From a virus: 64,000 nucleotides of DNA. Below the pieces are notes generated by a model. That model saw only the letters and a program-made list of their open reading frames with translations, made no database searches and had not been told where the DNA came from. This document shows, one piece after another, positions 26,461 through 64,000 of this stretch. A program made the translations under genes and the position numbers. Numbering within the stretch: the first letter of the stretch is position 1; the number at the start of each line of letters is the position of its first letter. Location of the stretch: the IMG/VR virus record IMGVR_UViG_3300034062_008235, positions 27,058-91,057 of that record. One strand, given 5' to 3'.

Positions 26461-27228
26461 TTATATCATCGTATCATACTTTAATATTAATGTTTTTATG
26501 TTAGATAGCATTTTATTAGGATGATTTTTATGCATGCTTGGAATCATTGGCATAAAGTCATAAATATCTCTATGAAATGCCATTTCTAAAGCTTTTTCAT
26601 AATATATTTTTGCATCCATAAAAAGATTCATTTCATATAAGTAATCTCCCCACAAGTTGATCAATTCTATAAAAGAAGGATATTTTTCAATTATAGAATT
26701 GATCAAGTCTATAAGCTCTTGATTATGATGGCTTGCTTTTAATTTTTCAAATACATATTGATAGATTATAAATAATTCGTTTAATTCAATGTCATTAGAG
26801 AAAATATATTCTTGTAATTTTACTAACAAGTTTCCTTTGGGCAAATATAAATTACACCATTCTTCATCAAACCTTTTCACATTGGTAAAAGAACTCTTTA
26901 TAAATATTTTAGAAACTTCTGGAATTTTAGCGTTGCTTCTTTTCGTCTTAACTATCCATTTATCCACAATTAGATTGTGATGAGATTTAAATATCTCTTC
27001 TTCATCCCAAAAAAGAATTTCTTCATCTGGATACAATAAGAAAAAGAATTCACCTTCATAGAACAATTCTAATTCAGGAAAAATATTTCTTTTGCTTTTT
27101 AATAAGTTCAAAGATTTAATTGTTTTGTCAAAAGTAAAAAAAGATTTATTTGCTATATGTGAGAATTTATTCACACATATTTCTTTTTCTTCTAAAGAAT
27201 CAACTATGATTGCACAATTTATTTTCAT
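26461..27228 (-). CDS. TPR-like protein, function unknown
   Basis: A 255-residue protein. The N-half is an alpha/beta region (INCAIIVDSLEEKE start, FFFLLYPDEEILFWDEEE later); residues 150-235 form helical pairs with a TPR-like repeat (WGDYLYEMNLFMDAKIYYEK). The glycosyltransferase-like gene at 41884 also contains TPRs, so an accessory glycosylation role is possible but unproven. No ribosome site; a CTATATT-type box lies in the 22-base spacer shared with gp55. Confidence 0.6.
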   Translation of the reverse strand: MKINCAIIVDSLEEKEICVNKFSHIANKSFFTFDKTIKSLNLLKSKRNIFPELELFYEGEFFFLLYPDEEILFWDEEEIFKSHHNLIVDKWIVKTKRSNAKIPEVSKIFIKSSFTNVKRFDEEWCNLYLPKGNLLVKLQEYIFSNDIELNELFIIYQYVFEKLKASHHNQELIDLINSIIEKYPSFIELINLWGDYLYEMNLFMDAKIYYEKALEMAFHRDIYDFMPMIPSMHKNHPNKMLSNIKTLILKYDTMI

Positions 27229-44711: not shown

Positions 44712-45644
44712 TTAGATGTTTATTATGTCAACAATTTGTTTGACTAGTTCGTTTGGCATAAAATTATAAATAAAATTTAATAGTTTAGAAGCTTTTGCCC
44801 TGTCACAATTATTTATGGTATTTCTGATTACCATATCATCGTATCCAAAACAATTGTATGAAATTTTTTCATCCACTTCATTTATAGACCAAAACTTTTC
44901 CCATATTTTATCTTGCATTGCATAATAGACAAATTCGACAATATTGTATATTAAAGCAATATACTCAGGTTTAGTAACCCACCAAGAACTTAATACTCGA
45001 TATTCAATCCCATAAATTTTAGAACGATATGCTCCAGCTTTCCCAAATGCTTGTCTTCTGTTGGCTTGCGTCATATCTTTGTCTAAAACTACGCTTGGTA
45101 TTCCTAAGAATAAATCAAGCATATAAACAAACAAAGGCTTTACAACGGGATCTTGTAAGTTTTTATCGTTAACATCTATTCCGATGTGAATATGACCGCC
45201 ACATGTTCTAAATCTACTATTCTTTATAAAATTTTCAATATCTTTGTTAAATTCTAAAGTATAAGCATTTGTTTCATCGTTACATCCGTTTTCACTAGCA
45301 TTTTCATCTTTTGTTATTGATAAGTCAATAATTGACGCAGCAGTGAAATTTAATTTACAAGGAGCAGCCAACTTTTCTAGAAGATACAATCCATTTGTAA
45401 TGTTTGCTACAAAATCTTTGCCATTATCACATGGAGGAATATTAAATTCTGCCAAAATGTTATCATAATAAATTTTTATTTTTTGCTTTTTGTAAGGATC
45501 GTGCTTTGATTGTTTAATATGCTTTGCAGCATTAACAATCTGATTAGATGAATCACGCAGAAAGCATTCGACATCTGATCCGATTTGCACTGGATGCTCC
45601 TTGGTGTGACAAATTAAATTAGAATTGTTAAACAAATTATTCAA
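44712..45644 (-). CDS. Phage amidoligase, COOH-NH2 ligase type 2 family
   Basis: A 310-residue protein of the glutamine-synthetase-like amidoligase class first noted in phage phiEco32. Signatures: VQIGSDVECFL near the start, ILAEFNIPPC, CGGHIHIGID (metal His residues) and a GKAGAYRSKIYGIEYRVL segment that fits the substrate-binding Arg region. It should join a carboxylate to an amine using ATP. It could use ammonia from the amidotransferase at 19098. The start is uncertain: the first in-frame codons are TTG 45644 and TTG 45635, with no ATG and no ribosome site. Confidence 0.75.
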   Translation of the reverse strand: MNNLFNNSNLICHTKEHPVQIGSDVECFLRDSSNQIVNAAKHIKQSKHDPYKKQKIKIYYDNILAEFNIPPCDNGKDFVANITNGLYLLEKLAAPCKLNFTAASIIDLSITKDENASENGCNDETNAYTLEFNKDIENFIKNSRFRTCGGHIHIGIDVNDKNLQDPVVKPLFVYMLDLFLGIPSVVLDKDMTQANRRQAFGKAGAYRSKIYGIEYRVLSSWWVTKPEYIALIYNIVEFVYYAMQDKIWEKFWSINEVDEKISYNCFGYDDMVIRNTINNCDRAKASKLLNFIYNFMPNELVKQIVDIINI

Positions 45645-50196: not shown

Positions 50197-51198
50197 TTAA
50201 TTTGAATTCTCCGCAGCAATTAGGCAACCTTTAGCAATTGTATAAGTTGCATTATCTGCTCTTGTAATTTCTCCAAGCTCAATATTCAAACCAGCACTCT
50301 TCATCGCATCTCTAAATATGATGTCAAACCCAGCGATACATGATGTCCCACCAGCGACAACAACGTCAACTGCCCCAGCAGACCTAACATTTGTTTTTGC
50401 GCTTGCAAGCCCGTTTTTGATGCCTTGGACGGTCTTTTCAATCATGATCCTATATTGGGTGCCAATTGCCCTTTCAATCATGTTCTTAGGCTCTTTAGAC
50501 AAATCTACACTAAGCTTTTCTTTATTGATAACTGTAGTACTCTCACCAGTTGCTTTAGCCGATTGTTTGTCAATCCAATCACCTGAATTCACAATAGCAA
50601 ACTGAAACACTGGATTGCCATACATTGCGTAACAAACATTTACCATTCCGCCGCCGCAAGATATTCCAATCCCTGTATAAGCCTTTTTCTCCATTTCAGC
50701 ATAAATGATTGCTAATGCTTCATTAATTGGATGAGGATTCAATTTATATCCATTTTCGCTTCTGTAACTCTTGAATATACTATGAAGGATTTTCTGATGG
50801 TAATCTGCATCAGTTTCTGTGTTAACTGCATTTGCTGGAACACAATAATAAAGCTTTTGTTCATCCTTATCAATTTCGCCAATCAAAGAATGAATCATAA
50901 TCTGAAGGATTTCAAATGCGCTCTTTTCTTTTGGATTAACGCATCCTTCTGACATTGGACGCTTTAATTCCAGAGAAGCTAACGTATAAGCCATGTTTAC
51001 AGCAGAATCACCAAGGATATAACCCATGTTGTCCTTTTCAATCAAAGGAACACCAGAGTTTTTCATCATATTAAATAAAAACCGATTTTCTAAAGGGATT
51101 TCTACAAATGCATTAATTCCTTTATTAAATTCAATTTCCTTCTTATTTCTTTTGGCACAAATCAAAGAAAACGTACCGACATCAAATCCAAGACTCAT
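50197..51198 (-). CDS. Actin/ParM-like ATPase
   Basis: A 333-residue actin-fold protein. Start ATG 51198 after AAGGAG. Phosphate 1 loop LGFDVGTFSLICAK begins the chain; connect and phosphate 2 region GIGISCGGGMVNVCYAMYG lies near 172; the adenosine motif VVVAGGTSCIAGF is near 285. ParM-type plasmid proteins and Alp filaments share this length and order. It might position or segregate phage DNA, or build intracellular filaments. It is flanked in one operon by a 79-residue and a DUF5659-like protein. Confidence 0.83.
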   Translation of the reverse strand: MSLGFDVGTFSLICAKRNKKEIEFNKGINAFVEIPLENRFLFNMMKNSGVPLIEKDNMGYILGDSAVNMAYTLASLELKRPMSEGCVNPKEKSAFEILQIMIHSLIGEIDKDEQKLYYCVPANAVNTETDADYHQKILHSIFKSYRSENGYKLNPHPINEALAIIYAEMEKKAYTGIGISCGGGMVNVCYAMYGNPVFQFAIVNSGDWIDKQSAKATGESTTVINKEKLSVDLSKEPKNMIERAIGTQYRIMIEKTVQGIKNGLASAKTNVRSAGAVDVVVAGGTSCIAGFDIIFRDAMKSAGLNIELGEITRADNATYTIAKGCLIAAENSN

Positions 51199-51199
51199 T

Positions 51200-51439
51200 T
51201 TATTGCTCCTTACTTCCAAATTTTATTTTTGGGACACTAACGAAATCGGGTATTTCCCATAAAGATGGTTCTTCTTTTTTCTTTTCTTCTAATTTACTTT
51301 CAACCTTGTTTTCAGGTATAACATTAGGTATAACATTATTTTGAGTTAAATTAATATTAATATCTAGTTTTATGTTTAATAAAACTTCACCATTTACGGT
51401 TTTGACGCTGACTTCTGTTGGTTTTAATAACTGTGCCAC
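51200..51439 (-). CDS. Small protein upstream of the actin-like gene
   Basis: A 79-residue protein with GTG start 51439 and no ribosome site; TATAAACTATATTA lies just upstream. Beta strand N-part (VSVKTVNGEVLLNIKLDINI), Lys/Glu linker, and a final LWEIPDFVSVPKIKF peptide. One base separates its stop from the actin-like ATG. Partition operons pair the ATPase with a small adaptor, so that is a hypothesis; no DNA-binding motif is seen. Confidence 0.5.
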   Translation of the reverse strand: MAQLLKPTEVSVKTVNGEVLLNIKLDININLTQNNVIPNVIPENKVESKLEEKKKEEPSLWEIPDFVSVPKIKFGSKEQ

Positions 51440-51452
51440 AAGTTAATATAGT

Positions 51453-52412
51453 TTATACGCAAAATTTATTGAGAAACTCAATTGTCTTTGATTCTACTAT
51501 TTCATCAGGTAATTCTCTAAAACATTTCATCGTATGATTGATTACAGGATAAGGACACCTGCCAATATCGTTGCAAGGTCCACATTCCCATTTAGGATCA
51601 TTTTCTTTTGTTTTTTGGACAACAGTTAGATTTTTATAATGCTTTCCTACAATGTTACCATTCGTATAATTAAAAAATCCAAGAATTTTTTTATCATATC
51701 CACCAGCACAATGTAAATGACCAGTATCTGTTGTTATTACTAGATCAGAAAAATACACATAACTCATTGCTTCTGTTAAATTTTTTCCTTTTATACAAGA
51801 TAAACTCAAAGTATTTAAGACGGGAACATTATGTAAATAAAAACAAAACGCATCTGTTTTACTTAATAAATTTTCAATTATTCTTATATGTTCTGTAATA
51901 ATATGTCTTGCCGGTACTGCGCTAAATGGTGTAAAAGCAATTATTTTTTGTCCATCCTTATAGCCAAGTTTTTTAAATTGTTCCATAACATATTCTTTAT
52001 TTTCATCCATTTTTGGCAAATGCATATTATGGTTCTTTAGTTCTAAACCAAATGAATTTGCCCATATATCGCTTCTGTTTTTGCTGCAATCTTTTTTTTC
52101 AGCAGTCTCGTATGATAGACACTTATGTGTAATGTTAAATGTTTCTCTATATTCATTGTGATCTATTTTTTCGTGACTAATAACTTCATCAATATATGGA
52201 TGATCTTTTGCTGCTGGAAAAAATGTTTCAGGAATTGCATAAGTTACATGAAAATGAGGATATTTTTTTTTGATATCTTCAAATATCATTCGTGACACTA
52301 ATATATCACCATATCCACCACATGTTCTAAAAACACAAATTTTATTTTTTATTTTGTTGTAATGACTTAAATTAATTGGTTTTTCTTTGCGTATTTTTAT
52401 AATTCTTCCCAT
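51453..52412 (-). CDS. GT9-like glycosyltransferase (heptosyltransferase family)
   Basis: A 319-residue glycosyltransferase: VFRTCGGYGDILVSRMIFED at the start replaces the usual nucleotide-sugar loop of ADP-heptose transferases, and the C-half has KIIAFTPFSAVPARH and FSDLVITTDTGHLHCAGG followed by a Cys-rich end (WECGPCNDIGRCPYP). Likely adds a sugar to a virion or host surface molecule. ATG 52412 is chosen; upstream frame enters the preceding hairpin. Confidence 0.75.
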   Translation of the reverse strand: MGRIIKIRKEKPINLSHYNKIKNKICVFRTCGGYGDILVSRMIFEDIKKKYPHFHVTYAIPETFFPAAKDHPYIDEVISHEKIDHNEYRETFNITHKCLSYETAEKKDCSKNRSDIWANSFGLELKNHNMHLPKMDENKEYVMEQFKKLGYKDGQKIIAFTPFSAVPARHIITEHIRIIENLLSKTDAFCFYLHNVPVLNTLSLSCIKGKNLTEAMSYVYFSDLVITTDTGHLHCAGGYDKKILGFFNYTNGNIVGKHYKNLTVVQKTKENDPKWECGPCNDIGRCPYPVINHTMKCFRELPDEIVESKTIEFLNKFCV

Positions 52413-52423
52413 GAAATAGAGGA

Positions 52424-52453
52424 GGGTGGTTGCAATCGAAATTACAACCACCC
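52424..52453 (-). terminator. Stable 3' hairpin with UUCG loop after 52478
   Basis: On the minus strand GGGTGGTTGTAAT and ATTGCAACCACCC pair (12 Watson-Crick pairs and one G-U) around TTCG. It lies about 25 bases after the 52478 stop. No U-run follows, so it may stabilise the message rather than terminate. Confidence 0.6.
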
Positions 52454-54502: not shown

Positions 54503-54774
54503 TCTACTACATCGTTTATATTAATATAAAATTTATTCTTACCACATTTAATTAAAGTTTGGTTTTCTATAATTTGTTCTATGACACCACCATTTTTAAT
54601 AAAATTTTTGCCAACTTTAATTAAATTGCCGTCAAGAACATCTGCAACTTCACAAAAATGTTTTAAAGATAAATTTGTTGTAACAGTACAACCTACCATT
54701 TTATTATTTTCATTTAATTCATTTTGTGCTTTTAACCATTTTTTGAAATCGTAAATAATTTTATTGGTGTTCAT
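54496..54774 (-). CDS. Small protein with leader-like start
   Basis: A 92-residue protein: NTNKIIYDFKKWLKAQNELN begins as a variant of the shared leader with LNE-Asn. The rest is beta-rich (CTVTTNLSLKHFCEVADVLD). It overlaps the end of the upstream gene by 14 bases. Function unknown. Confidence 0.55.
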   Translation of the reverse strand: MNTNKIIYDFKKWLKAQNELNENNKMVGCTVTTNLSLKHFCEVADVLDGNLIKVGKNFIKNGGVIEQIIENQTLIKCGKNKFYININDVVES

Positions 54775-55654
54775 AGAATTTTCTTATCATGTTAGGCTCA
54801 ATGTAGTTAGCAAACTTCAATGCATTTTTTATACCTGTAAAGCAAATATTTGCATTTGTCTTTCCTAATTTGTACCAAAATATATTTCCCTCAATTACAT
54901 TCATCGAAATTTTTTGTTGAGGATAGCAAAATAATTCAGTATCTTCTATTTTTTCAGTTGCTGGTCTTTGCTTTTCATAAGCATTAATTGGATAGGCAAT
55001 ACACAATTTTTCACAATTCATTTTAAAAGCTATGTTAATTGACGCTGCTATTGAACTTCTACACTCATCAATATGGACAGGATTACTGTGACTAACTGGA
55101 CTTTCATACTTCTCGTCTGGCGTAGGATAGTATTTTATTATTGTATTAGCATATCTTTTCACAAAATTGTTGTTTGTTCTTGAACTAGCAATCAAAATTG
55201 GGAAAATTCTTTCTGGTAAATAAACAAGAGCATCGTCAAACGGGTTTGTTATAACCATATAATCTGGTAAACGCTTTGCATTCCAAAATCTACATGCACC
55301 ATAATTAGTAATAATTTTCACGTCTGAAGGCAATTGATCTATCCATTGTGATGAATCCTTAAATCCATAACCATCTGATATAATTAATATTTTTTTACAC
55401 GTCTTTATCTCACTTGTAAAATCAAATGTTTCTACTTCGTGATTCTTCGTTTCATTAATCAGCAATAGTTGTATTTCTGATTCAGAATAAAAATTGTTAA
55501 TATCAACTGGTTTTACGTTGCTCTTAGCAAAATTTCTAATCCATATTTTGTCATCTGTTAAAAAATATTCATTTTTATTTTTGTGAATTTTAATAGTTAC
55601 ATTTTTATCTCTATTCTCAGACAAATTTACTTTAAATGTTTTGTAAAATTCCAT
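54761..55654 (-). CDS. Hypothetical protein, possibly sugar-related
   Basis: A 297-residue protein. A central Rossmann-like segment, KKILIISDGYGFKDSSQWID, then NYGACRFWNAKRLPDYMVIT and FPILIASSRTNNNFVKRY, and later CEKLCIAYPINAYEKQR. The layout is reminiscent of DUF115/MptE-like proteins found near motility or glycosylation genes, but the match is loose. Directly follows the first large adhesin gene. Confidence 0.55.
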   Translation of the reverse strand: MEFYKTFKVNLSENRDKNVTIKIHKNKNEYFLTDDKIWIRNFAKSNVKPVDINNFYSESEIQLLLINETKNHEVETFDFTSEIKTCKKILIISDGYGFKDSSQWIDQLPSDVKIITNYGACRFWNAKRLPDYMVITNPFDDALVYLPERIFPILIASSRTNNNFVKRYANTIIKYYPTPDEKYESPVSHSNPVHIDECRSSIAASINIAFKMNCEKLCIAYPINAYEKQRPATEKIEDTELFCYPQQKISMNVIEGNIFWYKLGKTNANICFTGIKNALKFANYIEPNMIRKFYEHQ

Positions 55655-55657
55655 AGT

Positions 55658-58600
55658 TTAACTTCTGTCCTTAAATTGAGTTGATTCTTTTTCATCTTCG
55701 TCAACGTCTTTAAACAAAGTCTTAGCTTTCAAAATATTAATTAAATTTACAGCATTATTGTCAATGGATTTTACGTCTTGCTCTTTTTCTTGAATATCGA
55801 TTTTATCAATTTTGATTTCTTCAACTACGACATCATTGCTTAAAATTTTTATTTCCTTAAATTCTGGCATAACTGGAGTGACAACATACTGATTTTTAGT
55901 TTGTGGTGTTACAGCCATAAATTGAATTTCTGGTATATTAATAGATTCTGAGTTTGGAGGTTTTTGCGCAGAAGGAACACTTCTTGTAATACTTAGTTGA
56001 CCTAATTCGTTTACAAAAGTATTGATCTCTTTTGTTGTGTTTGTGTTAATATATTCTGAAAGCTTTTGAACATATTCTTGATTGTATGTGTTAATTGAAA
56101 CTTCAATTTCTCTAAGCTTAGTTCTGTCCTTCAATAAATATGCATTTTCTTTATTAGAAAACTTAGAACATTCACTTAATGTACTAAAAATTCCTAAGTT
56201 TTCAAAATAAATACTTGCATCGTCAGCACTTAAATTTAAACATTCACATTTGTTATTTGTTAGAACAGGATCTTTGATTGCATAGTAAATATTGTCTTCA
56301 GCGTAATTATTAACACTAAAATTGAAAGCGGTTGGCGTGACTGGTGTGCAGGAGCAATTTTGATTTGGAGCTGGAGCTATGGGTGTTCCACAAGGTGCCC
56401 CTATATAAGGGCATGAACACTCGCCATTACAAAGTCCAGTTGGATTACCGTCAGGATGACATGCAATATTTTGAGCTACATCTATTTCCCAAATGTAACC
56501 AGTTGGATCGCCACCACCAACGGGAACACCGGGAACACATTTAACTGTCACTACACAGTTATCACAATTTCCTATATTAGGTGTTACATTAGGTGTTACA
56601 TTAGGTGTTACGGAGGGTGTTACTTGAGCAGAGCAACTAGTAACAATATCTGGAGTCACATTTGGAGTACAAGGGCTAGTTGGTGTTTCCCCGCAAGCAC
56701 AACCAACATCACCACCACAATCATTAAGACCTCTTTCTGTCCATGTGTTCACTGCGCTACAACGGTAATAGCAATTTCCAGTACAAACAGCACATCCCGG
56801 TTCAGATAAAGGCGTACAAGGCTCAAATACATAAAAGTCTTGAAGACTTTTTGGTGGAGTAGGATCGTCCAAACCAGCACATACTTCTTCGCAATTTCCA
56901 CAACATTGACAGAATGAATCTGCGGCTCCAGATACATTTCTACAAACACCATCTGATGTCCAAAATGCTGCCTCAGCATTCCAGTCGCATGTGCATTTAC
57001 AAGCTTTATTTGGCGAAATTTCTGCACATGCGTTTGTATCTCCATTAGTTTGACACGTTGTATATCTTTTTATATCCTCAAAACTTGTTGGAGGTTCCGA
57101 ACTTACTTCTTCACAATAACAATCTACACTGTCTTGACAATCAGTGGTTAAAAGCCAAGTATCATCTTCAATGCTCCATGTATAGATACAAGAAGTTGAA
57201 CAATTTGTTGGGTTTGTATAACAATGACTTGTTCCTGATTGACCGGGGTCTGTTCCGGGTGTAATAGGAGGCTCACAGCTGCAATCTCCGTTGCCGCAAT
57301 TCAATGTTGGCTCTCCCCAGCTTGTTCCATCCCATTGCCATGCGCAATCCACATTGCAATATGAACGACATGGTAAATACATTAAATCATCTAAAATGCC
57401 TCCTGTCATAGGAGGAACAGGACATTCACAATTATCGGAACATGGTTCTTCTGAATTATTAGATCTATTTCTACAAGTGTCTGTCACAGCCCAAGTATCA
57501 TCACTTAAATATGTATATTCACATGTACAATTGCTACAATCTTCTGGGGCAGGTGGTGAATATGACGGACTTGGTGTAACAGGAGTAGGAGGTACAGCAG
57601 GACCAGAGCTAGGAGTATTTGGGGTTAAAGCTGGATCTATAGGTGTTGAAGGAACAGAACTAGGACTTACAGCAGGTGAAGCTGGATTTATAGGGCTTGA
57701 AGGACCAGAACTAGGACTTACACTAGGACTTACACTAGGACTTACACTAGGACTTACACTAGGACTAGAACTAGGTGTAGGGCTAGGGCTAGGTGTAAAG
57801 CAAATATTATTTGCAATACATACATTTAAACTTGCATTTCCAATAACACCAACTTTTTGGCAAGTAGAATATCCTGCATCGTTATTAAACTTTTGAACAT
57901 ATAAAGTGTATGTTCCACCCGGAGCAGAATTAGAAAATGCTGATAAACTTGTATTGTAAGGACCAGCTGGAGCAGGTGCTGAAAAATTGACATTTTGTAA
58001 ACCATTTGAGGAACAATGATAAGTGCCACCATTTAATGGTGTTGGGGTAGAAACTGGAGTTATATAATTACCACTAGTGTCATCAAATGTTAAATTTATA
58101 AAATTTGCAACTGTGTAACTATTTGTTCCTAAAGCAAATAGTAATACAGCTGTGCCGCTCGGACCCACTAAAAGCATTCTGACATCACCAATTTTGCTAT
58201 CTGCTTTCAAGGATCTAAATTCTTGTATTGTTATTCTAACACTATTAACTGTCGGGGTTCCAGCACAAGATGTACCAGAATTTCCAAAAACTGCTGGATA
58301 AGGGTTTGCTGTACATAAAGATCTTATGTCAATTTGTCCTGTCTCAACATTAAAGCAATCATTGAAATTAAGTGTTCCAGTAACAGGGCTTAATGAAATA
58401 ACGCTAGGGATATTATCAACAACTATTATGCTTGGTATGTCGATAACAACAACAAGACTTGGTATTGGTCCGACAGATATCAAAGATGGTATGCTTATAT
58501 TGCCACCAAATGTAATAACAGAAGGGAAATCTCCAAATCTAGGAATAATGATTGGTGGTGGTGTAAATTCAAAAGGAACAATAGATGGCACTGGAATATT

Positions 58601-59416
58601 CAAGTCTGGAAATACAGGGATTACTGGGATTGGTGTAGAAGTAGCAATAGGTGCTGGAACTGGGATAAGGCTATTTGATTCTTTTGGTCTTGGAGTAGCT
58701 CTTTCAACACCAGAGACTACTTTACTGCAACCTTGGCTATTAACAGTTAAAACTGGGTCTACAACAAAGTTAGCAGGATAAACGTGTGTTCCGGTTAATG
58801 CATTTGTTTCTATTGCCCCATCCCCGAAATCTAATTGAAAATCTGTAATATTACCATTGATATTAATAACATATGATATTGTTGTTCCTGTAACAGGACT
58901 TTGACTTGAGATTAAATAATAAAAAACAACATCTGGACAATTAGAGTCATCTGTAATTTGATCTAAAGCGTTTAAATTTCTGATTCTCCAATCGAGTGTT
59001 GTTTGGTCTGGATTTTCAGAATAACCAATAAAGTTTTCCGTATTAACAATTGATCTTGCTAATTGATTGTGATGTTCAGCCATCACAAATCCACGAATAT
59101 CTGTTCCAGCTGGATTGAATTTAGATTTAACTCCTCCAATACTACGCAAACAGTTAAACAAAGCATTAACTTTGCCAGTATATTGTTCTACACCTACGTT
59201 CTCGTAATAAAGAACTTCTCCAGAAATAGTGGCATATCCATTGTCTGCCCATATTTCTGGTTTATCGGCATCAACTGGTTTGATATATAATGTTGTATCA
59301 AACTGTTCAGCAGATATTATTAGAACACTTTCTGTAGTGTTGTAAACCCTAAAAAGTGTTCGATCTGTATCGTACTTTTTGGGATATTGTGACGTTGGAG
59401 GTAAATTTTGACTCAA
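55658..59416 (-). CDS. Large modular adhesin/tail fibre with Cys-rich repeats
   Basis: A 1252-residue protein, TTG start 59416 after AAGGTG. In order: an N-domain of about 180 residues with ISAEQFDTTLYIKP and AEHHNQLARSIVNTE; a PKD-like segment near 190-220; a Pro/Ile linker; a domain at about 385-535 with VRITIQEFRSLKADSKIGDV, resembling proprotein-convertase P-domains; a PSVSPSVSP linker; six Cys-rich repeats (630-1000) with C-x-C-x-W/Y patterns; and a charged C-terminal region. Likely receptor-binding or host-attachment protein. Confidence 0.7.
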   Translation of the reverse strand: MSQNLPPTSQYPKKYDTDRTLFRVYNTTESVLIISAEQFDTTLYIKPVDADKPEIWADNGYATISGEVLYYENVGVEQYTGKVNALFNCLRSIGGVKSKFNPAGTDIRGFVMAEHHNQLARSIVNTENFIGYSENPDQTTLDWRIRNLNALDQITDDSNCPDVVFYYLISSQSPVTGTTISYVININGNITDFQLDFGDGAIETNALTGTHVYPANFVVDPVLTVNSQGCSKVVSGVERATPRPKESNSLIPVPAPIATSTPIPVIPVFPDLNIPVPSIVPFEFTPPPIIIPRFGDFPSVITFGGNISIPSLISVGPIPSLVVVIDIPSIIVVDNIPSVISLSPVTGTLNFNDCFNVETGQIDIRSLCTANPYPAVFGNSGTSCAGTPTVNSVRITIQEFRSLKADSKIGDVRMLLVGPSGTAVLLFALGTNSYTVANFINLTFDDTSGNYITPVSTPTPLNGGTYHCSSNGLQNVNFSAPAPAGPYNTSLSAFSNSAPGGTYTLYVQKFNNDAGYSTCQKVGVIGNASLNVCIANNICFTPSPSPTPSSSPSVSPSVSPSVSPSVSPSSGPSSPINPASPAVSPSSVPSTPIDPALTPNTPSSGPAVPPTPVTPSPSYSPPAPEDCSNCTCEYTYLSDDTWAVTDTCRNRSNNSEEPCSDNCECPVPPMTGGILDDLMYLPCRSYCNVDCAWQWDGTSWGEPTLNCGNGDCSCEPPITPGTDPGQSGTSHCYTNPTNCSTSCIYTWSIEDDTWLLTTDCQDSVDCYCEEVSSEPPTSFEDIKRYTTCQTNGDTNACAEISPNKACKCTCDWNAEAAFWTSDGVCRNVSGAADSFCQCCGNCEEVCAGLDDPTPPKSLQDFYVFEPCTPLSEPGCAVCTGNCYYRCSAVNTWTERGLNDCGGDVGCACGETPTSPCTPNVTPDIVTSCSAQVTPSVTPNVTPNVTPNIGNCDNCVVTVKCVPGVPVGGGDPTGYIWEIDVAQNIACHPDGNPTGLCNGECSCPYIGAPCGTPIAPAPNQNCSCTPVTPTAFNFSVNNYAEDNIYYAIKDPVLTNNKCECLNLSADDASIYFENLGIFSTLSECSKFSNKENAYLLKDRTKLREIEVSINTYNQEYVQKLSEYINTNTTKEINTFVNELGQLSITRSVPSAQKPPNSESINIPEIQFMAVTPQTKNQYVVTPVMPEFKEIKILSNDVVVEEIKIDKIDIQEKEQDVKSIDNNAVNLINILKAKTLFKDVDEDEKESTQFKDRS
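57711..57758. repeat. 12-bp tandem repeat, four copies
   Basis: CTAGGACTTACA repeated exactly four times in the Ser/Pro/Val linker of the adhesin. Each unit encodes Val-Ser-Pro-Ser in the reverse frame. Confidence 0.9.
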
Positions 59417-59440: not shown

Positions 59441-62400
59441 TTAAAATATATTGCAATTCCATTGAGAATTATCAACTCTTTCTGGTAATTTGTTAAATGT
59501 CAGCGTAATATCGTCAAATTTCACAAAAGAATTATTTGAGTAATCAAAACTTAAATAAACAGCGTGATCATTATCAGAACATGCTACTAAAGTATTATTA
59601 ACATTATTATAATCAGATTTTGTAGTATCTTGAAATTCTCTAAACGCTAAAGAATTCAAACCGGGACCACCAACTGACCAAATTGATGTATTTGGATTAT
59701 ATGCTGACACGCTACCAGTATTATTGAAGAAATATAACCCAGATACTAGATTAGTCAATTGACCTTCTGTCTTTTGTCCACCAACAATATCTGTTAATTT
59801 TTCAAAGTAATAAATAAAGTCAGCTCCATTTTCCTTTGTCCTGTAAAAACTTTGTAATTGGAAAAATTCACCCACACCGCTATTCCTAAGTATGTAACCA
59901 TTTCTTCCATTAATTGCAGTTCTATACACTGAGAAATAACCGTACAAGCTTACGTTGTCATCAAATTGTGAAGGATTTTGCCGAAGTTCTGTTGACCCAC
60001 CCAAATATTGATCGGCTACTGTTGAGATTGCAGAATAAACATTAGTTGTAAAATTATGTTCTGTAATTTGTTGATTAGTAAGAGATAATCCAGAAGTTTG
60101 ACTTAAAGGATTTCCTAACAAGAAATATTGACGGTTTTCAAAAGCATAAGCAATCCAGTTCCATGGTCTGTAATTAGTATTATAGTTGTTGTAAGTTTCA
60201 TTGAAAGCATTAAAGTTTATGGAAATAATTTCTTCAAGAGATGAAGCTTGTGTTGATTCTCTGCCGCTTGCATAGCTAATTGTTAAATTACCACCAATAC
60301 CACTTGAATAATAACCATTTATTGTTGAGAAATTATTTCTTGAAAATTCTCTAATAGCTTGGTTTTCATTTTCTGTGCCAATTAAGAAATCATTGTTTAT
60401 AGTAACTTCTTTACCTGTTATTTGTGTTTTTTTGAACACTTCGCTTAACAACCCCATTTCGTTAGCATAAATGTAATTTGTATTATCTGCATATGCAAAA
60501 AGATAATAGTTTTTACTTTCAACAACATTGATATAGTTTACTTTCTGAGTAATCCTATAAGATCCGTTAGAAGTTATACATTTTAAAGCAATTCCATAAA
60601 TTCCACCAATCCCATAATTAACATTTGTGCTATCCATATTTGGATGAGATAAAGAATCACTTAATATCCATTCGTAAGTAGTAATTGGATCTATTGCATA
60701 TTGACCATTACTTGTGACAGTAAAATACAAATTCATATTATTTGAAGTTTTAACTTGATTGTTAATCTCTATTTGGTATGCATTAAGTTCAGGCTCCAAT
60801 ACGGCAAAATCAGGAGCAATATATCTTGCATTGATATAACTTGGTAAAGAAGAAGTATTAGATCCAAATCGATTTGCAACTGTTAATTTTACATCATAAA
60901 CACCGGGATTTTGATAAGTGTGTGAAACATCTGCCGTAGAATTGACTAAAGAATAACTAATGACTTTTGTTGAACCATCACCAAAATCCCAAGTGTAAGT
61001 TATATCATTATTTTGCAACTCTTTTCCTGTGTTAAAACTCAAATCTGTGAAATTAACAGCAAATGGAACAATTCCAATTGTAGAATTAGCTGTAAACCAT
61101 GGTTTAGGATTGTAAGCAATTGTTCTTAAGTAATTTATTCTTTGTTCCATTGTTCCAAATAACGGCTTTGCTGTTGTTTGTCCGACAATTCCAGAGAACC
61201 CTTGAATTAATTTCAAAGCATCTTTGATAACATTGTGATGTTGAGCAACAACATTCATAGTAACATTTGTTACATTTTTCGGTTTATCAGAGTCTACAAA
61301 ACCCTCAATCAATTTGATATCATCAAATGTGGTGTCACTTTTAGATGTATAATAAAATGAAATTGCTCTGAACTCTGGATCACTGCAATTTTCTGTCAAA
61401 GTTATAATACCAGAATCTGGGAACAAAGACATAACAGATGGATTATTTTCTACAATTACACTTGTATCACCTATCATGTAATCTTGAGCCAAAGAAAGTC
61501 TTAAACTGTCTTTTACACCATAGAGATTTGCGTCTGTATCCAATAAAGATGGATAATTCAATCTTGGAAGCACTAAACTTGTTGAAGGAGGTGTTGGTGC
61601 AATTGGAACAACTGGAGGTATTGGCGTTACAGGCGCAATTGGTGATGGTATAATTGGAGTTACAGGAGCAACTGGTGCTGGAACTGGTGTAGGAGTTGGC
61701 GTAGGAGTTGGTGTGGGAGTCGGTGTCGGTGTAGGAGTTGGTGTAGGAAAACAATTTGTTATTAATGCTGCTTGACATTCTTCTTCTGTTGCGTAAACAC
61801 CAATTTCTGTGTATTGATTTTGAGCAAAAGGTCCAGAACCAGTGTAATAATATTCAATGTAATAGTCATCACCATAAACACAGATGCAATCACCAGCATC
61901 GATTCCTTTTAAAATGTCAAAACTGCTGAAATTTGCTCGTAATAAATGATATCCGCAATTTGTGATATATGTTGAGCATGTTTCGCATACTAATAACGCA
62001 GCATCACATTCTTCCTTTGTCTGATACACTCCTGTTTCAGTAAATTGATTTTGAGCAAAAGGTCCAGAACCAGTGTAATAATATTCTACATAATGGTCAT
62101 CACCATAAACACACAAACATTGCCCTATAAATAATTCTGGAGCAGCAATTGGATTATCGACATTTACTTTCAATAAGTGATAACCACAATTTTCCAAAAA
62201 ATATTCGCATTGTACTGATGGTGCTACAGGTGTTATTTCACATTCATTTTTTGCAAAATTGCAATCTTCAAGGCTGTTGTAAATGCCATATACTTCAAAC
62301 TGATTTTGTGCATATTCACCTGAACCAGTATAAAAATAATTTATATAAAATTCATCGCCATAGACACATATGCAATCGTTTTTCAATAATGATGTATTGG

Positions 62401-64000
62401 CAATAGGATAATCTACTTTTGCTTTCAATAAATAATAACCACAGTTTTTTATTAACACTGTGCATGGCGATCCCGGATCTGCACATCTAACAGTTTGTAT
62501 TAATACGCCATTTGGAATACAAGTGCTTACTATCAATTCGCCTAATGGCGTAAATATTTGTATCCATGCAATTCCTATGTGACAACCACCATCTATAGCG
62601 CATGCTAATTCAAAAGTAAAATGTCCGTTTTGATCTGCAACTATGTTATTCGGGAGCACAAACTGTGTTTGTCTATCACCACCTGTAGCACCATTATTAA
62701 GATCAACAGTTCCAATTTCCACATCATTTACAAGAAATTTAAATATTGCCCTATCGCAATAATGTCCACCCGGACATGGTCCTTCACTATCACTGTATCT
62801 TATCAATGCTGTATATCCAGACAAATCTATATCTGTTATACACAAAGGTAATGTGGGTGGTGGTAGTGGTTCACATGTAATAAACGCCGCTGTGTCATTT
62901 CCAGTAAGAGTTACATAAGTTCCATTGCCATATGCAACACTGTACCAGTCTTGCGATGATGGAAGAGGCAATTCTTCCCATTCTTCACCATCTGTTGAAA
63001 AGAATGATGTTGCTCCTATTTCAGTCCCATAAGCATCTTTTCTTCCTTGAATTACCATGAACCCTTCAAGAACACCACCTGCACCATAGGTAACACTGCC
63101 TAAATTGGAAACTCCGGGCTTTATTGCTGGCAATTCTCCAGTCCAATTTCGTCCATCTATTGATCTTGCTGTACGACCATCTCCAATTGCTAGAAAAAAT
63201 GAATTTCCATAAGCTAAAGTATTCCAACCAGAAACTATGGGGTCAGTGATTGTCCCCCACGGCATAGTATTTTCGTCCCAAGTAACTCCATCATATGTTG
63301 ATATTGATCTGCGTTTTATTCCAGTATATGTTATCGCTACTGTTATGTTACTTAAATTAATGTCTCCACTTGCGCATAAAGCTCCTCTGACATCTCCTTT
63401 GTTTGAAACTAAATTCCAAGTTAAACCAAGATCTGTTGAAGAAATAACTTTTTCATTTATAGATTCTGCTATTGTAAAAGTCCCACCATTAAAAGTAGAA
63501 TAAACAATTCTATTTGGTTTAAAATTACTATCTACAATGTTCTGTGGAGCTGTCCAGCTAGTTCCATTAGTTGAAGTCGATATTTTAGGTATATTTCCTG
63601 AAGTGCCATCTCCAAGACATACTGCTATAAAAGTATTGCTGCCATATGCTATATCAATCCATTTTGCACTTATTGGCAAATTAAATGAAATCCAAGTCAC
63701 ACCATCACTGCTATATGCTCCTTTGTTGCCTTCTCCAATCGCATAAAAAGCATTTTTATCTTCTACAAATATAACTCTGTTCCAATGCTGAGAAACAGGT
63801 AGTTTTGTTGGAACCCAAATAAGATTGCAACCGGGTTGTGGCGGCGGTGGTGGTGTAGGACTAGGTGATGGACTAGGACTAGGTGATGGACTAGGACTAG
63901 GTGATGGACTAGGACTAGGTGATGGACTAGGACTAGGTGATGGACTAGGACTAGGTGATGGACTAGGACTAGGTGATGGACTAGGACTAGGTGATGGACT
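59441..64000 (-). CDS. Giant modular fibre/adhesin, N-terminus outside window
   Basis: At least 1519 residues; open to the window edge. From the edge: Ser-Pro repeats; a beta-propeller with BNR/Asp-box repeats (SSDGVTW, STNGTSW, STDGEEW and similar) near 60-330; a lectin-like segment; three copies of a 70-residue Cys-rich repeat (NCGYHLL...CVYGDDYY...YTGSGPFAQNQ); a Thr-Pro linker; a domain shared with the neighbouring adhesin (AQHHNVIKDALKLIQG); PKD-like domains with WDFGDGS; and a long beta-rich C-terminal region. Ends with a stop at 59441. Likely host recognition. Confidence 0.75.
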   Translation of the reverse strand, partial: SPSPSPSPSPSPSPSPSPSPSPSPSPSPSPSPSPSPSPSPSPSPSPSPTPPPPPQPGCNLIWVPTKLPVSQHWNRVIFVEDKNAFYAIGEGNKGAYSSDGVTWISFNLPISAKWIDIAYGSNTFIAVCLGDGTSGNIPKISTSTNGTSWTAPQNIVDSNFKPNRIVYSTFNGGTFTIAESINEKVISSTDLGLTWNLVSNKGDVRGALCASGDINLSNITVAITYTGIKRRSISTYDGVTWDENTMPWGTITDPIVSGWNTLAYGNSFFLAIGDGRTARSIDGRNWTGELPAIKPGVSNLGSVTYGAGGVLEGFMVIQGRKDAYGTEIGATSFFSTDGEEWEELPLPSSQDWYSVAYGNGTYVTLTGNDTAAFITCEPLPPPTLPLCITDIDLSGYTALIRYSDSEGPCPGGHYCDRAIFKFLVNDVEIGTVDLNNGATGGDRQTQFVLPNNIVADQNGHFTFELACAIDGGCHIGIAWIQIFTPLGELIVSTCIPNGVLIQTVRCADPGSPCTVLIKNCGYYLLKAKVDYPIANTSLLKNDCICVYGDEFYINYFYTGSGEYAQNQFEVYGIYNSLEDCNFAKNECEITPVAPSVQCEYFLENCGYHLLKVNVDNPIAAPELFIGQCLCVYGDDHYVEYYYTGSGPFAQNQFTETGVYQTKEECDAALLVCETCSTYITNCGYHLLRANFSSFDILKGIDAGDCICVYGDDYYIEYYYTGSGPFAQNQYTEIGVYATEEECQAALITNCFPTPTPTPTPTPTPTPTPTPTPVPAPVAPVTPIIPSPIAPVTPIPPVVPIAPTPPSTSLVLPRLNYPSLLDTDANLYGVKDSLRLSLAQDYMIGDTSVIVENNPSVMSLFPDSGIITLTENCSDPEFRAISFYYTSKSDTTFDDIKLIEGFVDSDKPKNVTNVTMNVVAQHHNVIKDALKLIQGFSGIVGQTTAKPLFGTMEQRINYLRTIAYNPKPWFTANSTIGIVPFAVNFTDLSFNTGKELQNNDITYTWDFGDGSTKVISYSLVNSTADVSHTYQNPGVYDVKLTVANRFGSNTSSLPSYINARYIAPDFAVLEPELNAYQIEINNQVKTSNNMNLYFTVTSNGQYAIDPITTYEWILSDSLSHPNMDSTNVNYGIGGIYGIALKCITSNGSYRITQKVNYINVVESKNYYLFAYADNTNYIYANEMGLLSEVFKKTQITGKEVTINNDFLIGTENENQAIREFSRNNFSTINGYYSSGIGGNLTISYASGRESTQASSLEEIISINFNAFNETYNNYNTNYRPWNWIAYAFENRQYFLLGNPLSQTSGLSLTNQQITEHNFTTNVYSAISTVADQYLGGSTELRQNPSQFDDNVSLYGYFSVYRTAINGRNGYILRNSGVGEFFQLQSFYRTKENGADFIYYFEKLTDIVGGQKTEGQLTNLVSGLYFFNNTGSVSAYNPNTSIWSVGGPGLNSLAFREFQDTTKSDYNNVNNTLVACSDNDHAVYLSFDYSNNSFVKFDDITLTFNKLPERVDNSQWNCNIF
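61686..61746. repeat. Thr-Pro codon repeat
   Basis: Imperfect GTAGGAGTTG-type repeats encode an alternating Thr-Pro linker of the giant adhesin, joining Cys-rich repeats to later domains. Confidence 0.75.
63861..64000. repeat. 18-bp tandem repeat, nearly eight copies
   Basis: CTAGGTGATGGACTAGGA repeated without change to the window edge. In the reverse frame it encodes Ser-Pro repeats. Copy number is probably variable. Confidence 0.95.

Follow-up and report, generated by a model that had tools for sequence, protein, structure and literature searches.

What is a protein with tandem cysteine-rich repeats doing in the genome of a tailed virus, and what are its cysteines for? The question is raised by an open reading frame (ORF) at 55658-59416 on the minus strand of a 64,000-nucleotide stretch of DNA (hereafter the window), which is positions 27,058 to 91,057 of IMG/VR virus record IMGVR_UViG_3300034062_008235, a record of 91,057 bases. 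The coordinates are exact, and the ORF encodes 1252 residues from a TTG start; a misplaced start was considered and rejected, as the TTG is preceded by AAGGTG in the sequence. We think it probable that the product serves an uncultured T4-like myovirus as a modular virion-attached adhesin, in the manner of a tail fibre or receptor-binding protein, and that its cysteine-rich tip faces the receptor. A first reading made from the letters alone (the sequence-only reading) had already proposed an adhesin, and the sequence comparisons and structural models described here support a modular virion protein of that kind.

Six cysteine-rich units

Residues 621-1030 hold 50 of the 63 cysteines in the protein, together with 10 tryptophans, and six cysteine-rich units span residues 627-1021 within this region. 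The bit scores below are those of a held-out profile, built from 122 unit rows of which none comes from the adhesin or its cysteine-bearing relatives.

57368..57538, minus strand: unit 1 (residues 627-683), 14.4 bits
57221..57358, minus strand: unit 2 (residues 687-732), nearest the consensus, 27.6 bits
57053..57202, minus strand: unit 3 (residues 739-788), 21.1 bits
56816..57001, minus strand: unit 4 (residues 806-867), divergent, found by its own-family profile only (held-out -3.9 bits)
56633..56785, minus strand: unit 5 (residues 878-928), an eight-cysteine form with a paired extra cysteine, weak at 6.2 bits
56354..56566, minus strand: unit 6 (residues 951-1021), of atypical spacing, found by regular expression only (held-out -5.6 bits)

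A regular expression for the spacing finds five units in residues 640-1040 (401 residues), compared with 0-3 in 2000 residue shuffles, and these together with unit 1, beginning at residue 627, make six. Units 1-3 are independently confirmed by the held-out profile, which reports no domain beyond residues 627-1021 in a query that also held the neighbouring ORF. With the adhesin alone as query the best unit scores 28.8 bits, while among 1000 composition-matched shuffles the highest score is 9.4 bits and none reaches 14.4. Both sets of shuffles reject chance repeats, and the six repeats noticed at the outset are real. The profile has the form C1-C2-x-[WY]-x-W...W...C3...C4-x-C5...C6, which units 1-3 match and units 4 and 6 miss; because units 4-6 are weak or absent in the held-out profile, we regard them as family-specific variants, which rest on their spacing and on close relatives.

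A typical unit is about 47 residues long, with three short strands, six cysteines and a conserved tryptophan. Structure prediction of a single unit had been suggested by the sequence-only reading, and an AlphaFold2 model of residues 682-735, computed with 54 other units, does show three strands at a mean local confidence (pLDDT) of 80.6 and a predicted template-modelling (TM) score of 0.60, but it brought no significant relative in the PDB. Sequence searches of Pfam, NCBIfam, PHROGs and the PDB gave no named family for the unit, and tblastn in 50,697 phage records found no match for the cysteine region or for two further unit queries. The whole protein gave one distant match in the same records, LR756511, a record of 595 kb that aligns with residues 7-275 and lacks the unit. 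In open-access PubMed Central (PMC), at the level of titles and abstracts, the six-cysteine unit is undescribed among the papers listed under cysteine-rich repeats or domains of phage tails or planctomycete phages, phage disulphides, huge-phage fibres and tail P-domains.

Modular organization of the protein

The cysteine units are preceded by an ordered series of other modules and followed by a conserved C-terminal region:

58967..59416, minus strand: residues 1-150, a constant N-terminal 'AEHHN' domain and probable virion anchor, from conservation and fold
58703..58951, minus strand: residues 156-238, a PKD domain, from the predicted fold
58370..58702, minus strand: residues 239-349, proline-rich with IPSxI repeats, from sequence, with low model confidence
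57794..58369, minus strand: residues 350-541, a P-domain-like beta module with no protease domain adjoining, from the predicted fold
57545..57793, minus strand: residues 542-624, a linker rich in serine, proline and valine, from sequence
55658..56326, minus strand: residues 1031-1252 and the stop codon, a C-terminal region conserved among cysteine-bearing relatives

A model of residues 1-545 built from 18 sequences has a mean pLDDT of 59, so only parts of it are reliable; residues 238-352, for example, fall below 50. The predicted fold of residues 23-120, approximately, resembles virion-protein domains from the phages JBD30 (Z 9.9), VP1 (Z 9.5) and GP4 (Z 9.1), and the predicted fold of the next module resembles PKD domains (6aem_A with a Z of 9.4 across 75 residues, and 4l9d_B with a Z of 9.1), with a Pfam score (PF18911/PF00801) below the curated cut-off (PKD_4, 16 bits against 27). 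The predicted fold of residues 350-541 matches Kex2 462-599 with a Z of 10.9 and a root-mean-square deviation of 3.5 over 134 residues, and on furin 445-574 with a Z of 10.6 over 122 residues, which agrees with the earlier suggestion of a P-domain ahead of the repeats. The Pfam family P_proprotein (PF01483) scores 13.8 bits with the whole protein and 20.0 with the region alone, below its cut-off of 21, and we therefore call the module P-domain-like; the family does match four of six homologues (best E 5.2e-5), and an alignment of the module found no match in the PDB by sequence. No peptidase family was found in the ORF at E≤1 in the Pfam search, and thus no subtilisin-type protease adjoins the module. 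Whole-protein matches in the PDB to designed armadillo repeats were dismissed as reflecting the composition of the proline- and isoleucine-rich stretch.

Viral relatives of the gene were found at 19 loci, which are not all independent. The N-terminal part is kept in 18 of them, the remaining one, L002, being cut and matching from residue 260 onwards; residues 1-150 are 34-89% identical in relatives that cover them, with nearly invariant columns. The N-terminal 345 residues, with the fibre-anchor-like and PKD domains, recur, and the C-terminal halves differ among relatives. Within the adhesin gene itself only L002-L006 have the cysteine units. In L011 (6032-8704) and L014 (8129-12793) the C-terminal half is a long IPSxI / IPTSIHINTPK repeat array in place of the units, L008 has other repeats in that half, and in L007 and L013 P-domain-like regions are combined with linkers of Asn/Pro or Ser/Pro. 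Identity to L003 is 88.5% over residues 1-150, 67% in the P-domain, 38% in the cysteine region and 57% after it. The C-terminal region, compared in rows on the adhesin gene itself, is 39-57% identical to L003-L006 and 99.6% identical to L002.

Variation on a conserved framework

Comparison of the closest relatives shows where the protein is changing. Over 8451 aligned positions the window shares 99.3% identity with L002, and 50 of the 61 nucleotide differences (gaps included) fall within a single tract of 693 bp, where about five would be expected:

56327..57019, minus strand: residues 800-1030, the hypervariable tract, from nucleotide differences between the window and L002

The 405 codons of the cysteine region differ in this pair by 14 synonymous and 31 non-synonymous changes, while the P-domain and linker have none and the C-terminus has five synonymous and one non-synonymous. 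Other pairs agree: 28 of 32 amino acid differences between L004 and L006, and 132 of 170 between L004 and L005, lie in the cysteine region. The framework itself is retained; between the window and L003, 48 of 49 cysteines and all 10 tryptophans are kept, compared with 105 of 321 other residues (Fisher p 8e-20, or 5.6e-18 with the cysteine and tryptophan scores lowered). The near-identical pairs, window with L002 and L004 with L006, point in the same direction without significance (p 0.06 and 0.15). Conserved cysteines in a fast-changing remainder are as expected of a surface that contacts a receptor.

We propose that the constant N-terminal domain and the PKD domain would attach the adhesin to the virion, that the P-domain-like module and the Ser/Pro linker would extend it, and that the six small cysteine-braced units would form the exposed, receptor-facing part. 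The framework of cysteines and tryptophans would stay constant as other residues change and whole tracts are replaced, so that one scaffold could present many binding surfaces. A broader proposal, which we put forward as a possibility rather than as the likelier case, is that the unit is an undescribed phage-borne cysteine-braced scaffold, carried in tandem on tail proteins by a variety of environmental phages, in which rapid replacement of the remaining residues and of whole tracts would alter receptor specificity.

Disulphides or metal

The sequence evidence leans towards disulphides rather than metal as the role of the cysteines. All six are present in 125 of 132 distinct units examined, a count that leaves out units with needed columns absent or with a tail running off the ORF. 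Among 107 distinct units that have C1, C2, C4, C5 and C6, the total is six in 63, seven in 20, eight in 13, nine in three and ten in eight. Where a cysteine stands at the second tryptophan, an additional one is found in the C5-C6 loop in 7/7 units, compared with 24/100 otherwise (Fisher p 1e-4, with rows that are partly related). C1, C3 and C6 are absent from five related units, which retain C2 and C5; these reduced forms have two or three cysteines, read 'DCxWMWDGMxWVPxxHE...PPCWPP' and are in L332, L338, L349, L358 and L366. Paired gain of cysteines together with units reduced to two or three favours disulphides over metal, and suggests that C2 pairs with C5. The cysteines would most likely pair after the particle has entered oxidising surroundings, C2 with C5 and probably C1 with C6.

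It had been held at the outset that phage fibres rarely use disulphides. The accessible parts of published reports do describe them, in the sheath, baseplate and short tail fibres of Agrobacterium phage Milano (PMC10811340) and a single bond in JBD30 gp48 (PMC11445458); a report on viruses of methanogens and methanotrophs (PMC9723712) likewise places, in the part available, a tail spike among the most cysteine-rich virus proteins.

The alternative that survives best is that the units are zinc modules, the cysteines serving as thiolate ligands in a reducing cytoplasm and the fibre being stabilized without disulphides. The compartment in which phage proteins are synthesized is reducing, the units contain closely spaced cysteines (C-x-C), and the odd cysteine counts, which occur in 23 of the 107 units, are less awkward for metal than for strict pairing. 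However, the commonest count is six rather than four or eight, the gains come in pairs in all seven cases, and a clade with only two or three cysteines has too few for a tetrahedral cysteine site; nor is any known zinc family among the sequence-search matches of the units. We thus consider zinc an unlikely explanation and favor disulphides.

Distribution of the unit

The repeats were at first thought to be unusual in phage proteins, and acquisition from host surface proteins was offered as one source; neither view is supported by the distribution that we find. Collections of genome contigs and viral contigs were scanned with a DNA pattern that represents the unit in one of its spacing forms, and the pattern-selected loci are a non-random sample in which the profile confirms the unit at 30 or more of 48 viral loci (a minimum, with L357 dropped because its ORF is identical to that of L349). 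The first two patterns each gave at least 120 matches in viral contigs and, among the matches listed, L255, L231, L050 and L137 passed the inclusion threshold beyond the known family. Many of the proteins carry several further units outside the pattern selection, and L009 (254 kb) encodes the unit in two ORFs close to position 242,000 of its record, far from its adhesin homologue.

Among cellular loci the profile did return units, in 3 of 62 pattern matches (two metagenome-assembled genomes (MAGs) of Planctomycetes and one archaeal MAG), but of these at least one is a prophage tail locus: in L294, a Planctomycetes MAG, the unit gene lies downstream of the major tail and tape measure genes. Alignment searches with up to 35 candidates scored per genome matched 1 of 199 sampled Planctomycetes genomes, the one match being the centre genome, and none of 200 in the phylum of a Cupriavidus genome, the latter run without a positive control. 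The viral and cellular counts indicate that the unit is mainly a viral module within the collections searched. It could still be argued that the module was taken recently from host cell-surface proteins and put to phage use later, since many proteins that bacteria secrete contain PKD and P-domain folds, several PDB fold matches of the N-terminal model are to secreted proteases and collagenases, and three cellular genomes do carry units; against this stand the low cellular yield beside the viral one, the tail-gene setting of L294, and the sampled genomes. A recent host origin is accordingly quite improbable.

Genomic setting and placement on the virion

The window also encodes a tail sheath, a T4-type sheath stabiliser and a T4 baseplate protein, as well as a DnaB-like helicase, a family A polymerase and a ribonucleotide reductase, and on these genes we read the virus as a fragment of a T4-like myovirus. 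The tail genes in the window, the virion-like fold of the N-terminus, and the unit gene within the tail module of L294 all point to a virion-attached adhesin. That the protein is instead secreted or displayed on the cell surface during infection is quite improbable: cysteine-rich domains do suit secreted proteins, but the N-terminal domain is predicted to resemble virion-protein domains, relatives retain the arrangement of the gene beside paralogous adhesin-like genes, the unit gene of L294 sits among tail genes, and no signal peptide is seen at the N-terminus on inspection by eye, made without a predictor.

Several points weigh against the favored reading. The placement of the adhesin on the virion is itself something that we infer. 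The unit fold search found no significant relative (the best PDB match has a Foldseek E of 3.7; VIA Z 3.0). Synonymous as well as non-synonymous changes are raised in the hypervariable tract, so that recombination with a diverged allele is likelier there than point selection. As to disulphides, the rows that show cysteine gain are few and partly related (those of the window and L002 are near-identical), the five reduced units form one clade in which three keep a third cysteine, and the odd counts mean that strict pairing within the unit is not universal. No thioredoxin-family gene was found in the 91 kb record, which is a fragment (the control matched 13 of 14); Evr1_Alr also gave no match, with a control that matched nowhere and is hence uninformative.

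Two neighbours flank the adhesin gene directly:

54761..55654, minus strand: an MptE-like gene, directly downstream of the adhesin (Pfam MptE-like, 24.5 bits, cut-off 34.6)
59441..64000, minus strand: a paralogous adhesin-like ORF that runs off the contig end, with a PKD domain and three copies of its own cysteine domain

Gene order is conserved, with an MptE-like homologue in 15 of the 19 relatives and the upstream gene also kept. A glycosyltransferase-9-like gene follows the adhesin at 51453-52451 (minus strand) and is kept in 8 of 19. The MptE-like family is one that we take to be related to Maf flagellin glycosylation, and the two products might glycosylate the Ser/Thr/Pro linkers. In the paralogous ORF the PKD domain scores 55 bits in Pfam, over the curated cut-off, and the cysteine domain (NCGYHLL ... 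C.CVYGDD ... EEC) differs from the six-cysteine unit; a profile of it has no match in any other ORF of the fetched loci. Further along are an actin-like gene at 50197-51219 (minus strand; Pfam Volactin, 228.6 bits), with a similar gene next to the adhesin genes of phage LR756511 (595 kb), and a COOH-NH2 ligase-type gene of the phiEco32 kind at 44712-45644 (minus strand; Pfam PF14395, 49.7 bits).

Comparison with known systems

The unit is present in dozens of environmental phage loci and is nameless in the libraries searched. If it is a variable binding scaffold, it would point out the tip with which many uncultured phages recognize their hosts and provide a handle for predicting receptor regions. 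Its nearest likeness, by fold comparison only, is the BFVD model A0A6J5NQ39, whose protein is uncharacterised and comes from an uncultured Caudovirales phage. The match has a probability of 0.99, a TM of 0.70 relative to the query, an identity of 25% and an E of 0.11.

The P-domain-like module shares its predicted fold with the P-domains of Kex2 and furin, and differs in that the adhesin has no subtilisin domain and scores below the Pfam cut-off. With Milano and JBD30 gp48 the adhesin has in common the probable use of cysteines to stabilize tail or fibre proteins; however, in the accessible parts of those reports the Milano bonds are mostly between sheath and baseplate subunits, gp48 has one bond, and tandem six-cysteine units are described for neither. 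The tail spikes of PMC9723712 are cysteine-rich like the adhesin, with no repeat unit described in the portion available. Fold-stabilizing disulphides within fibre repeats, if correctly predicted here, would extend the picture given by Milano and JBD30. Like modular tail fibres, the adhesin has a constant anchor-like N-terminus, swapped C-terminal modules and a hypervariable distal part; it differs in that the variable part consists of tandem cysteine-framed units, and in its presumptive rather than established location on the virion. As a scaffold that would hold its cysteines constant while the residues between them change, the proposed unit is comparable in principle to the knottin-type display scaffolds.

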